From Hyphomonadaceae bacterium (GTDB lineage: Bacteria; Pseudomonadota; Alphaproteobacteria; Caulobacterales; Aquidulcibacteraceae): a stretch of DNA of 64,000 nt. Position numbers and translations under genes: made by a program. How positions within the stretch are numbered: position 1 is the first letter of the stretch; each line of letters opens with the position of its first letter. The stretch lies in contig JALHOC010000001.1 of the NCBI GenBank assembly GCA_022843225.1, positions 56,874-120,873 on the forward strand. Reading direction: 5' to 3'. The notes under the pieces were generated by a model. It was given only the letters and a program-made list of their open reading frames with translations, was not told the origin of the DNA and made no database searches. Shown in pieces: positions 39,273 through 41,761 of this stretch.

Positions 39273-40420
39273 ACACGCGTATCTTTCTGGTGGCGGCGGA
39301 AGCCTCAGGAGACGCCCTGGGAGCAGATTTGGCGCGTGAACTCAGGACGCGCGATGCCCGCATCATTCTCGCGGGCGTTGGCGGGCCGTTGATGGGTGCT
39401 GAAGGTCTCCCCACGCAAGCGGACATCTCGGGGCTCGCGGTGCTCGGTTTTGTCGATGGCTTGCTAGCCTATGGGCGCGTGAAGCGCGCGGTCGCCGCGA
39501 CGGTGAGCGCGATTGTGGCGGCGAAACCTGATGTCGTTGTTTTGATCGATTCGTGGGGCTTCACGTTGCGCGTTGCGCAGGGCGTGAGAGCCGCAGCGCC
39601 TGAGATCAAGCTCGTGAAGTATGTCGGCCCGCAGGTGTGGGCGACACGCCCTGGCCGCGCGGCGACTTTGGCGGCGACCGTCGATCATCTGATCTGCATC
39701 CATGACTTCGAAGTCCCGTTCTACGCGCCGTACAATTTGGCGTGCACCGTGTGCGGGCATCCCGCGCTCGGGCGTTATCGACCTGGCGACGGCGCCGCGT
39801 TGCGCGCGCGGCAGGGCTACAAACCCAAGGACCAGCTTGTGCTGGTGTTGCCGGGATCCCGGCCCGCCGAGATCAGACGCATTGGTCCGATCCTGTGGCG
39901 CGCCGCCGAAATTCTGGATCGAGATCGCCCGAATGTGCGTTTGCTTGTCGTGGCTGCGGCGGCCGTGCGCGAGGCAGTCGTGGCGCAGGCGCCGCCGGTG
40001 GCACGCATTCTTGATGAGCGCGACAAGGAAGACGCCTTCGCCGCGGCGACCGTCGCGCTCGCCGCCTCGGGCACGGTGACGACCGAGGTGGCGTTGCAAG
40101 GCGCGCCGCTCGTGATCGGCTACAAGCTCGGCTGGATGACCTGGGCGCTGGGGCGGGCGTTCTTTTTCAAGTCAAAATTCGCGACCTTGATGAATGTCGC
40201 CGCCGACGCCGAGGTCGCGCCGGAATTCCTGCAGACGCGCTGCACGCCCGCGAACATCGCTACCGCGGCGGCGACCTTGCTCGATGACGAGGGCGCGCGC
40301 GCCGAGCAAATCCGCCGCCAAGACGAAGCGCTCGCGCTGATGGGACGCGGCGGGCGCCCTGCCGCCGAGATCGCCGCCGATGCGGTGCTCGGCGTGATTG
40401 CGGGCGGCGCGCGCTCTTAG
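39269..40420 (+). CDS. lpxB: Lipid-A-disaccharide synthase
   Basis: A 383-residue GT-B (GT19) glycosyltransferase that joins UDP-diacylglucosamine to lipid X. It opens with IFLVAAEASGDALGADL and carries LIDSWGFTLRVA, KYVGPQVWATRPGRA, VLPGSRPAEIRR and the donor-site stretch ASGTVTTEVALQGAPLVIGYK. It starts with GTG overlapping the lpxI stop (GTGA). It is the last gene of the envelope cluster. Confidence 0.96.
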   Translation: MNTRIFLVAAEASGDALGADLARELRTRDARIILAGVGGPLMGAEGLPTQADISGLAVLGFVDGLLAYGRVKRAVAATVSAIVAAKPDVVVLIDSWGFTLRVAQGVRAAAPEIKLVKYVGPQVWATRPGRAATLAATVDHLICIHDFEVPFYAPYNLACTVCGHPALGRYRPGDGAALRARQGYKPKDQLVLVLPGSRPAEIRRIGPILWRAAEILDRDRPNVRLLVVAAAAVREAVVAQAPPVARILDERDKEDAFAAATVALAASGTVTTEVALQGAPLVIGYKLGWMTWALGRAFFFKSKFATLMNVAADAEVAPEFLQTRCTPANIATAAATLLDDEGARAEQIRRQDEALALMGRGGRPAAEIAADAVLGVIAGGARS

Positions 40421-40488
40421 CCAGACAACGCGCACGCCCTTATCCGGCGATCCGGGTTTGCGAATTCGAGGTTCCCGAAACCGGGAGA

Positions 40489-40571
40489 CGGGGCGCGTGG
40501 GTCCGCGCTTGAGTAGTCTCTAAGGTGCGTTGATCGTCTCCGATCAACGCTGCGCGCTCCCACGCGCCCCG
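40489..40571. other. Strongly foldable 83-nt element after lpxB (possible RNA)
   Basis: A 13-bp outer stem pairs 40489-40501 (CGGGGCGCGTGGG) with 40559-40571. Inside it CGCGC at 40504-40508 pairs with GCGCG at 40552-40556, and a 10-bp hairpin GCGTTGATCG (40527-40536) pairs with CGATCAACGC (40541-40550) around a TCTC loop. An 18-nt bulge (40509-40526) lies on the 5' side only. Twenty-eight nested base pairs in 83 nt are far beyond chance. No T-run follows, so it is not a simple terminator. Strand and function are unknown; a small RNA, an lpxB 3' structure or a DNA palindrome are options. Confidence 0.45.
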
Positions 40572-41064
40572 CACAGAATCGTTTGTCCCGGATTGGCCAA
40601 GGGAGTTGGAGGACCCTGTTCCAGCCGAGTGCCCCAGCTGGCGCCTTAGCTCCGTAGCCACGAGCCGGTTTCACGCGCATCGATCCCCGAATTGGATCGT
40701 GGACCCTGCCATGGCGAGCAGGCATGTGACCGCCGTTCGTTTCGCTCGTTGGGCAAGGTGGAGCGTCGTACCTTTCGGCCCTCTCGCATCCCCGAGCTTG
40801 GAGCTTCCTCTACGTTGCGCTTCAGCGTTGCCGCTTCAGCACTCGCATCGAACGATCACCGCGCCGATTCCGCGCCCGCACATTCCAAAGTTTCGGAGCT
40901 CTTCGAAATCTCCCGTGTGCGGACAGGGCGATCTTAAGCTCGCCCGAACTCGGTCGGATAGATTTTTGTACAATGCGCTTCTGCAAGGGATTTCGCGCGA
41001 TGTTCGCGGGATTGGGATGGAGATATCCCCCTATTTGCCCAGCGAGAGGGTCGGTCCGCGCGTG

Positions 41065-41200
41065 CTCCCCCGCGAGGGGAGCTGTCAGCCGAAGCCTTCG
41101 GCGTAGGCTGAGAGAGGGGGCGGAAACACAGAACGCTGACGAAGTCGCCCCCTCCGATCTTCGCTCCGCTCAGACCACCTCCCCCTCTCGGGGGAGGAAG
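41065..41200. repeat. Inverted pair of intergenic palindromic repeats
   Basis: Copy 1 (41065-41122) has the hairpin CTCCCC-CGCGA-GGGGAG and ends GAGAGGGGGCG. Copy 2 (41146-41200, reverse strand) has the hairpin CCTCCCCC-GAGA-GGGGGAGG and ends CGGAGGGGGCG. Both share the layout of a C/G hairpin, a GTCTGA/GTCAGC-type middle and a GGAGGGGGCG-type end, and they face each other with 23 bp between. This matches REP-like doublets in alphaproteobacterial intergenic DNA. No transposase lies nearby. Confidence 0.65.
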
Positions 41201-41242: not shown

Positions 41243-41713
41243 TTAGCGCTCCGCCGGAGGTGGACCGAAAAGTGTCAGACGCGGTGGCTCAACCCAATCG
41301 GGATGAATGAGCAACGGGAAGTGGCGTTTCCACTTTGGTTTCACGTCAGAGAGACGAACGGACGCGAAATCCTGTTGAAGTTTTACTGGGGTCGGCGTCA
41401 CAGGAAACAACTGCTGGAATGCTTCGGCTCCCGCCCATTTCGCGAAGCTTATGCAGTAGTAACCGCTGGCGGACAGCGTTGGTTTTGCAGAGAGTTCATC
41501 AATGAGCCGGATTGCATTGGGCAACGTTTCCGCATGGCGACGCAGTAGGCTTAGTTGGTGGACTTCAAAGAGCGACCAATCCCATCGAGGCCCTGTTGGC
41601 GGGGTATTGATTGAGCGAACGAGCGCGAGAGCCTCCTCATAGCATCCGCGAGAGGAAAGGCTGACAGCTCGAACCCACGCGAAGGCAGCACGGAAGCGGT
41701 CACGAATGCCCAT
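41243..41713 (-). CDS. Hypothetical protein, possibly TPR-like
   Basis: A 156-residue frame from ATG 41713; a GTG two codons upstream is equally possible. It begins MGIRDRFRAAFAWVRAVS and continues with helical wording SRGCYEEALALVRSI, which looks like half a tetratricopeptide unit, then LLRRHAETLPNAIRLIDEL. The C-terminal third is Pro-rich (LFPVTPTPVKLQQDF, HPDWVEPPRL). The mixed composition and helix-like periodicity favour a real protein. It lies downstream of gltA on the same strand and borders the repeat pair. I do not recognise a function. Confidence 0.55.
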   Translation of the reverse strand: MGIRDRFRAAFAWVRAVSLSSRGCYEEALALVRSINTPPTGPRWDWSLFEVHQLSLLRRHAETLPNAIRLIDELSAKPTLSASGYYCISFAKWAGAEAFQQLFPVTPTPVKLQQDFASVRLSDVKPKWKRHFPLLIHPDWVEPPRLTLFGPPPAER

Positions 41714-41761
41714 TGTCACTCTGGAAATATCGGACTAGGCCGCGCGGGGTGCAACGTCCGT

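Follow-up and report, generated by a model that had tools for sequence, protein, structure and literature searches.

Results

The locus between lpxB and gltA

The window analysed here is a stretch of 64,000 nucleotides (nt) from the Hyphomonadaceae bacterium assembly GCA_022843225.1 (contig JALHOC010000001.1, positions 56,874 to 120,873), and its subject is a structured element in the gap between lpxB and a convergent gene that, from its sequence, we take to be gltA. A first-pass annotation made from the letters alone had marked 40489-40571 as a strongly foldable element with nested stems of 13, 5 and 10 base pairs (bp) and an 18-nt one-sided bulge. Folding reproduces the outer, middle and inner stems (free energy -58.4 kcal/mol, z -8.5, with 0 of 200 shuffled sequences as stable), and the one-sided segment itself contains a 3-bp mini-hairpin. 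The annotation was also right that this is more than a simple terminator; a scan of 40380-41100 found no terminator-like site. Its failure to recognise transfer-messenger RNA (tmRNA), RNase P, signal recognition particle (SRP) RNA or tRNA agrees with the lack of an Rfam match: release 15 gave none at the gathering score in the whole window, two unrelated sub-threshold matches and nothing else at 40380-41100 (E ≤ 10), and no relevant match at 16 related loci (E ≤ 0.5).

The hairpin is one domain of a repeat unit of about 600 nt that is dispersed in its own genome, and the unit probably holds an RNA gene on the minus strand, antisense to lpxB, placed by the strand tests and a promoter-like pair described below. 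The features of the window copy are as follows.

40435-41033, no strand assigned: outer extent of the dispersed repeat (RNA gene and both flanks; approximate), from copy matches in its own genome
40470-40924, minus: predicted RNA gene of ~455 nt, 5' end put near 40924 and 3' end near 40470 from the covarying fold, the minus-strand z of -4.5 and the promoter-like pair
40954-40959, minus: -35-like block ATCCGA, within CTATCCGAC, set 17 or 18 nt away from the -10 in all 32 aligned copies
40931-40936, minus: -10 element TAAGAT (family consensus TAYAMT)
40876-40922, minus: 5' hairpin, with helix 40916-40922/40876-40882 and apical stem 40904-40908/40891-40895, from covariation
40896-40901, minus: self-complementary hexamer GAGCUC of the loop AAGAGCUC, where a kissing-loop dimer may form
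40910-40914, minus: GGGAG, pseudoknot strand 1, partner of 40483-40487
40483-40487, minus: CUCCC, pseudoknot strand 2, partly pairable instead with 40473-40476 as a 3'-terminal hairpin
40865-40870, minus: central-domain closing helix, strand 1, partner of 40576-40581
40576-40581, minus: central-domain closing helix, strand 2, from the same permutation test
40582-40864, minus: central multibranched domain, of varying length between copies, from the RNAalifold consensus and mutual information
40489-40571, minus: the hairpin first annotated, 3' domain of the RNA, from fold energy and covariation

The gap also contains a 158-amino-acid open reading frame (ORF) of doubtful status (41243-41719, minus) and, just past the promoter side of the element, a second GC-rich palindromic stretch (41060-41200, CTCCCCCGCGAGGGGAG...).

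Copies and distribution

Within its own genome the element is multicopy. A 141-nt query returned five places and a 630-nt query ten matching pieces, among which four copies have both ends (the window copy, C40 at 94% identity, C44 and C1:166 kb), two are cut by contig ends (C13 and C67) and two places hold the promoter-side region only (C10 and C64). DNA searches of this genome and 60 relatives gave matches in 22 of the 61, and 34 both-ended copies were aligned, of which 32 were carried into further analysis. Covariance models were built for one end of the element (R1) and for the other (R2). Within the genus, 24 of 30 genomes had R1 matches (E ≤ 0.001). The count reaches a maximum of 16 in G020 and G008, and G024 has 14 and G015 has 12; many of the matches are weak, near 30 bits. 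Under the stricter filters used outside the genus, R1 matched 27 of 299 genomes across the order, including two of the same family (G148 and G209) and one of another family (G241, nine matches), and 1 of 385 in a class sample, this being the source genome itself; R2, filtered likewise, matched 8 of 105 genomes in the family of G241. R2 also matched (E ≤ 0.01) 12 of the 20 divergent loci that had been fetched for an R1 match (L200-L219), copies of G241 among them, and the coincidence of both models on the same divergent copies, another family included, supports one family with two ends. In G717, of the family of G241, 13 R2 matches fall at 12 places, eight of which begin less than 230 nt from the first base of a contig, as expected for repeats that break assemblies.

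A 23-nt pattern retrieved 34 genome stretches and one viral stretch, and R1 was run on 34 of these 35 (L136 was left out). It matched 23 over all or most of the model; the remaining 11 (the viral stretch and ten records from other taxa) align with model positions 27-57 only and are read as chance hairpins. The named records matching over all or most of R1 are metagenome-assembled genomes labelled Alphaproteobacteria, Hyphomonadaceae, Caulobacteraceae or Caulobacterales. Plasmid and phage collections held no match to the element. Among the literature matches listed there was no description recognisable as this ~455-nt RNA family. The family is previously unrecorded, a predicted RNA gene dispersed in many copies in a little-known group of Caulobacter relatives.

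Some variation among the copies stands apart from the family as a whole. A promoter-side region (CGGTCGGATAGATTT...GGGGTGGAGATATCC) occurs at L047 and L048 (C10 and C64) and at L100 and L101 (G021) with no recognisable RNA body, or with a divergent one, as is clear in L265. A small ACATCGC repeat, mostly as GCGAAACATCGC, is nested in the central domain of L063, L080, L081, L084, L096, L098 (twice) and L102. Outside the element, L208:844-1209 has Rfam matches under the gathering score to the Brucella small RNAs BASRCI408 and BASRCI27.

Fold and covariation

The two terminal domains are supported by covariation, and the closing helix and the end-joining pseudoknot by permutation of partners. Relatedness of the copies inflates counts of double changes, and each is given here beside its controls. 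At the first-annotated hairpin, where compensatory changes had been named as a check, 66 alignment cells changed on both sides of a pair (plus-strand view), compared to 27.7 in shuffles and 15-30 in controls with the structure slid along the alignment. The 5' hairpin gave 9 such cells compared to 1.7 shuffled in 32 sequences, and 103 double-sided changes compared to 22.7 shuffled (slid controls 4-23) in 85 distinct rows, an alignment that was fitted to the model. For the closing helix (GAAUCG/CGAUUC in the window), the partners within a copy bind better than permuted partners, with 0 of 2000 permutations doing as well, and the same test of the pseudoknot GGGAG/CUCCC gave a fraction of 0.0005 of 2000. 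The consensus fold covers the central domain too, on the evidence of the RNAalifold and mutual-information analysis. The copies therefore have a conserved multibranched fold with covariation, as large ornate RNAs do.

Strand

Several measures favour the minus strand. Of 32 copies, 26 reach their lower minimum free energy there (mean difference 7.7 kcal/mol); the consensus fold has an energy of -205.6 compared to -196.3 on the plus strand, and the window copy has a z of -4.5 compared to -3.3. Among consensus pairs with a Watson-Crick share of 75% or more, A-C exceeds G-U by 66:35 in the plus-strand consensus and G-U exceeds A-C by 66:34 in the minus-strand consensus, while structures set by hand on the plus strand gave A-C to G-U ratios of 63:42 and 25:5. 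A plus-strand RNA was dropped after this count favoured the minus strand. The first-pass annotation was probably right to see an RNA here. Neighbouring genes, called with a heuristic ORF caller scored by third-position GC content (GC3), were seen on both sides of 26 of the 32 copies, in the orientations +- 11, -- 9, -+ 3 and ++ 3 (plus-strand view), and show no consistent placement of the copies in a 5' untranslated region (UTR).

A promoter-like pair before the first stem

On the minus strand, ahead of the first stem, a -10-like hexamer has A at its second position in 32 of 32 aligned copies, T at its sixth in 30 and T at its first in 24. An ATCCGA-like block, picked using a short list of variants, lies 17 nt upstream of it in 22 copies and 18 nt in 10, and the first paired base follows the hexamer by 8 nt in 28 copies, 9 in three and 7 in one. 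The spacer is variable between copies and the two blocks are kept. A looser pattern, tuned by eye and with no null computed, finds the pair at 16-18 nt in 79 of 86 copies, in 63 of them as a strict TA...T at 17 or 18 nt, and finds none in seven. The G241 copies L201-L203 carry a perfect TATAAT.

In the flanks of many copies (e.g., L050, L062 and L085) a palindrome resembling repetitive extragenic palindromic (REP) sequences, TTGGAGCGCG..CTCC..CGC, often lies just past the promoter.

A self-complementary loop that changes its letters

Loops were read in 86 fetched copies, a subset since the genus search has 132 R1 matches. In 81 of the 86 the apical loop of the 5' hairpin contains a perfect palindromic hexamer, and eight sequences are represented in a list compiled by eye: GACGTC (32), GAGCTC (29), GCTAGC (7), GTGCAC (5), GGATCC (4), GTCGAC (2), GCATGC (1) and GAATTC (1). 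Two or more types occur in 14 of 25 genomes, and on a tree built without the hexamer the type changes at least 21 times, compared to a mean of 40 for shuffled labels. In a count at fixed offsets the palindromes concentrate at the loop, where two neighbouring offsets reach 56% and 16%, and the one further peak, of 28%, is made by a single hexamer, which we take for TTCGAA in the stem; four rows were mis-anchored in this count and their loops were read separately. The window loop consists, on the minus strand, of AA and a self-complementary hexamer. Palindrome switching of the kind seen in ornate RNAs with symmetric kissing loops is thus present. A symmetric kissing loop predicts just this, letters that change under preserved self-complementarity, and the pattern suggests that two copies of the RNA may bind each other through this loop.

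Insertion sites and copying

The element is absent from the same junction elsewhere. In 25 other genomes where lpxB and the presumed gltA were both seen, neither R1 nor R2 matched between them (E ≤ 0.1); the two genes are separated by no more than 142 nt in 19 of these genomes and by 612-1215 nt in the other six. A second site lies between a gene that we take to be ldcA and a convergent neighbour. Both genes were seen in 11 of 28 loci fetched: they are 11-43 nt apart in six genomes, 560-730 nt apart with a copy in the source genome, G025 and G021 (where the copy is divergent, 25 bits), and ~870 nt apart with no significant R1 match in G003 and G004. Comparison by eye of filled and empty versions of this one site revealed no evident terminal inverted repeats or target-site duplication. 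A flank motif of some copies, GGCCGSCGATSCGGNTTT, gave four matches in three genomes searched, three of them in G020, of which two lie at copies.

Near-identical copies differ most at the promoter. The window copy and C40 share 434 of 444 positions in the RNA body, 17 of 29 in the promoter spacer and 24 of 24 in the columns that follow. In G025, L085 has 100% identity to L086 and L087 over the body, 69% in the spacer and 71% in the next stretch, and the break falls at the putative transcription start; L086 and L087 are identical throughout. Such a pattern could arise from gene conversion, selection on the promoter or RNA-mediated copying.

Among the 30 genus genomes, some of which are incomplete, the IS110 transposase domain (PF01548) had no match in 15, including the source genome, G009, G024 and G025 with 5-14 R1 matches, and RVT_1 had none in 17, including G020, G008, G019 and G015 with 10-16; neither IS110 (15 of 30 genomes) nor RVT_1 (13 of 30, with one match in the source genome) follows copy number. 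ORFs near the 32 copies (within 6 kb for 19, in loci of 0.7-1.8 kb for 13) formed one recurrent cluster, common to three loci, which we presume to be a response regulator and judge a chance association.

A hypervariable segment lies past the conserved hairpin, so it was compared with the flanks as a guide sequence might be. Over 32 copies, the match to the 150 nt upstream averaged 6.38 for a copy's own flank and 6.52 for the flanks of other copies, with its own flank the best in 1 of 32, and five other flank ranges gave mean z values of -0.36 to 0.31. Larger flanks, compared for 18 copies, contained one strong antisense match (L065, 18/20, at -346) and one weaker (L059). The partner in L065 is a neighbouring reading frame that we take to be cytochrome P450-like, and the match is probably chance, no other tested copy having one as strong. 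Across the whole window, the segment of the window copy matched itself and its own inverted repeat and otherwise stayed within the range of shuffled controls. A guide role was rejected, since matches to the flanks were overall at the level of chance and promoter spacing explains the segment better.

Discussion

The element is likely to represent a dispersed, promoter-driven and homodimerising family of structured RNAs, encoded by stand-alone genes of ~400-500 nt. Each copy would be transcribed from its own promoter, on the minus strand in the window. Through the apical loop of the 5' hairpin, molecules carrying an identical loop would bind in pairs as symmetric kissing-loop homodimers; beyond this hairpin would follow the central multibranched domain, closed by its covarying helix, and the RNA would end in the long GC-rich hairpin first annotated and a CUCCC strand that may pair back to GGGAG of the 5' hairpin and so join the ends of the molecule. 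Copies would spread to new intergenic sites and be homogenised within a genome; as the search of the unit turned up no gene, they would depend on machinery encoded elsewhere to move or be copied.

Several observations weigh against parts of this model. Five of the 86 loops (L099, L100, L200, L203 and L205) are not perfect palindromes; G-U pairing on the minus strand rescues L099 only, L100 fits neither strand, and L200, L203 and L205 are rescued on the plus strand, which mildly favours that strand. Loops that copies inherited in common cannot be counted as independent observations. In 32 sequences of the 5' hairpin, one slid control scored above the structure for covariation (0.096 compared to 0.088), yet not for double changes, and the central domain aligns poorly across copies. 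Eight of the 20 divergent loci L200-L219 had no R2 match at E ≤ 0.01. The -35 block differs from the sigma-70 consensus, and the generic scan of 40380-41100 called neither promoter nor terminator.

Known systems offer partial parallels. Like OLE, GOLLD and ROOL, the RNA is long, non-coding and multibranched, and palindrome switching in OLE L9.3 and GOLLD L21a is given in PMC12286853 as evidence of intermolecular kissing loops that are symmetric in both RNAs. Rfam holds models of all three (PMC12286853), and none of them matched in the window, the element or the 16 related loci. The present family also differs in its occurrence among Caulobacterales relatives, its multicopy dispersal and the hexamer loop at its 5' end, and its oligomer is a prediction from sequence. 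The dimerization initiation site of human immunodeficiency virus 1 (HIV-1), described in PMC7357161 as an apical loop that bears the palindrome GUGCAC with purines on its flanks, resembles the present loop in its position, its six-nucleotide palindrome flanked by purines and, in five copies, GUGCAC itself; the resemblance is in how it would work and implies no descent. The CIR repeats of Caulobacter and Brucella (Chen and Shapiro 2003, as described in PMC2229807) are likewise dispersed, intergenic, structured repeats of alphaproteobacteria, but are ~110 bp long, consist of two arms and carry GANTC at a loop. Going by that description, with no CIR sequence compared, the ~455-nt length, promoter-like pair, pseudoknot and palindromic loop set this family apart. 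MRSC-65-2 and other mobile/repeat sequence candidates (PMC11109978) share a multicopy structured motif with no fixed gene partner, though MRSC-65-2, as reported there, consists of one long stem and occurs across diverse phyla.

Of the alternatives, the one that fares best is a regulatory small RNA family in which the promoter of each copy serves its own condition. It is compatible with the homodimerising RNA family and would add a role to it, and spacers that diverge beside near-identical bodies (in L085 compared to L086 and L087, and in the window compared to C40) speak for it; matches of the spacer segment to the flanks are at chance level overall, and this added role is possible but doubtful.

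Less probable, and in our judgement unlikely, is a non-autonomous DNA transposon resembling miniature inverted-repeat transposable elements (MITEs), where the inverted repeats would be DNA structure or transposase sites and any transcript would be functionless. The element is indeed short, dispersed and multicopy, has no ORF of its own and no recurrent one beside it, often lies near contig ends and has lineage-specific insertions, and the class of mobile/repeat sequence candidates has the same profile in the account of PMC11109978. Such a DNA element does not account for the G-U/A-C strand asymmetry, the pseudoknot, the promoter-like pair at a fixed spacing from the first stem or the paired changes in the palindromic loops, and mobility is in any case compatible with encoding a working RNA. 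The simpler suggestion of a dispersed DNA palindrome, raised in the first-pass annotation as what would overturn its own view, holds as to dispersal and fails as to the palindrome, given a long covarying fold with strand asymmetry.

Two further readings are improbable. Derivation from a known mobile system (an IS110 bridge RNA, a group II intron or a retron), as its remnant or its guide RNA, was suggested by a structured, multicopy and apparently mobile unit whose hypervariable segment first resembled a guide loop. Against it stand the Rfam searches, which gave no relevant match and no intron match (a very diverged intron would lie outside these models), the genomes with no match to PF01548 or RVT_1, and a variable segment that is unlike the flanks and for which promoter spacing accounts. 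We give equally little weight to a selfish RNA spreading via its own transcript, a SINE-like (short interspersed element) or dimer-packaged bacterial element moved by an outside enzyme. It is considered because the G025 bodies are identical up to the putative start and one promoter is only ~70% identical to the other two, and because the switching dimer loop is retrovirus-like; the window and C40 speak against it, as their difference is an island in the spacer and the next 24 nt upstream are identical again. A processed small RNA from the lpxB 3' UTR, as the first-pass annotation had proposed, or an attenuator of lpxB would fit a hairpin beginning 68 nt after the stop codon, but is very improbable for a multicopy element whose RNA would be antisense to lpxB and whose conservation downstream of lpxB, which that annotation itself required, was looked for and is absent in all 25 of the other genomes where the junction was seen.

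The homodimerising RNA family, if the model holds, would matter in two respects. Few natural RNAs are known to homodimerise, and the large bacterial ones still await a function; eight self-complementary loops, often two or more per genome, would provide a natural set of orthogonal RNA dimers with which the kissing-loop idea can be tested. And a short, gene-free, promoter-driven RNA unit that multiplies with no evident transposase or reverse transcriptase raises the question of how its copies move.
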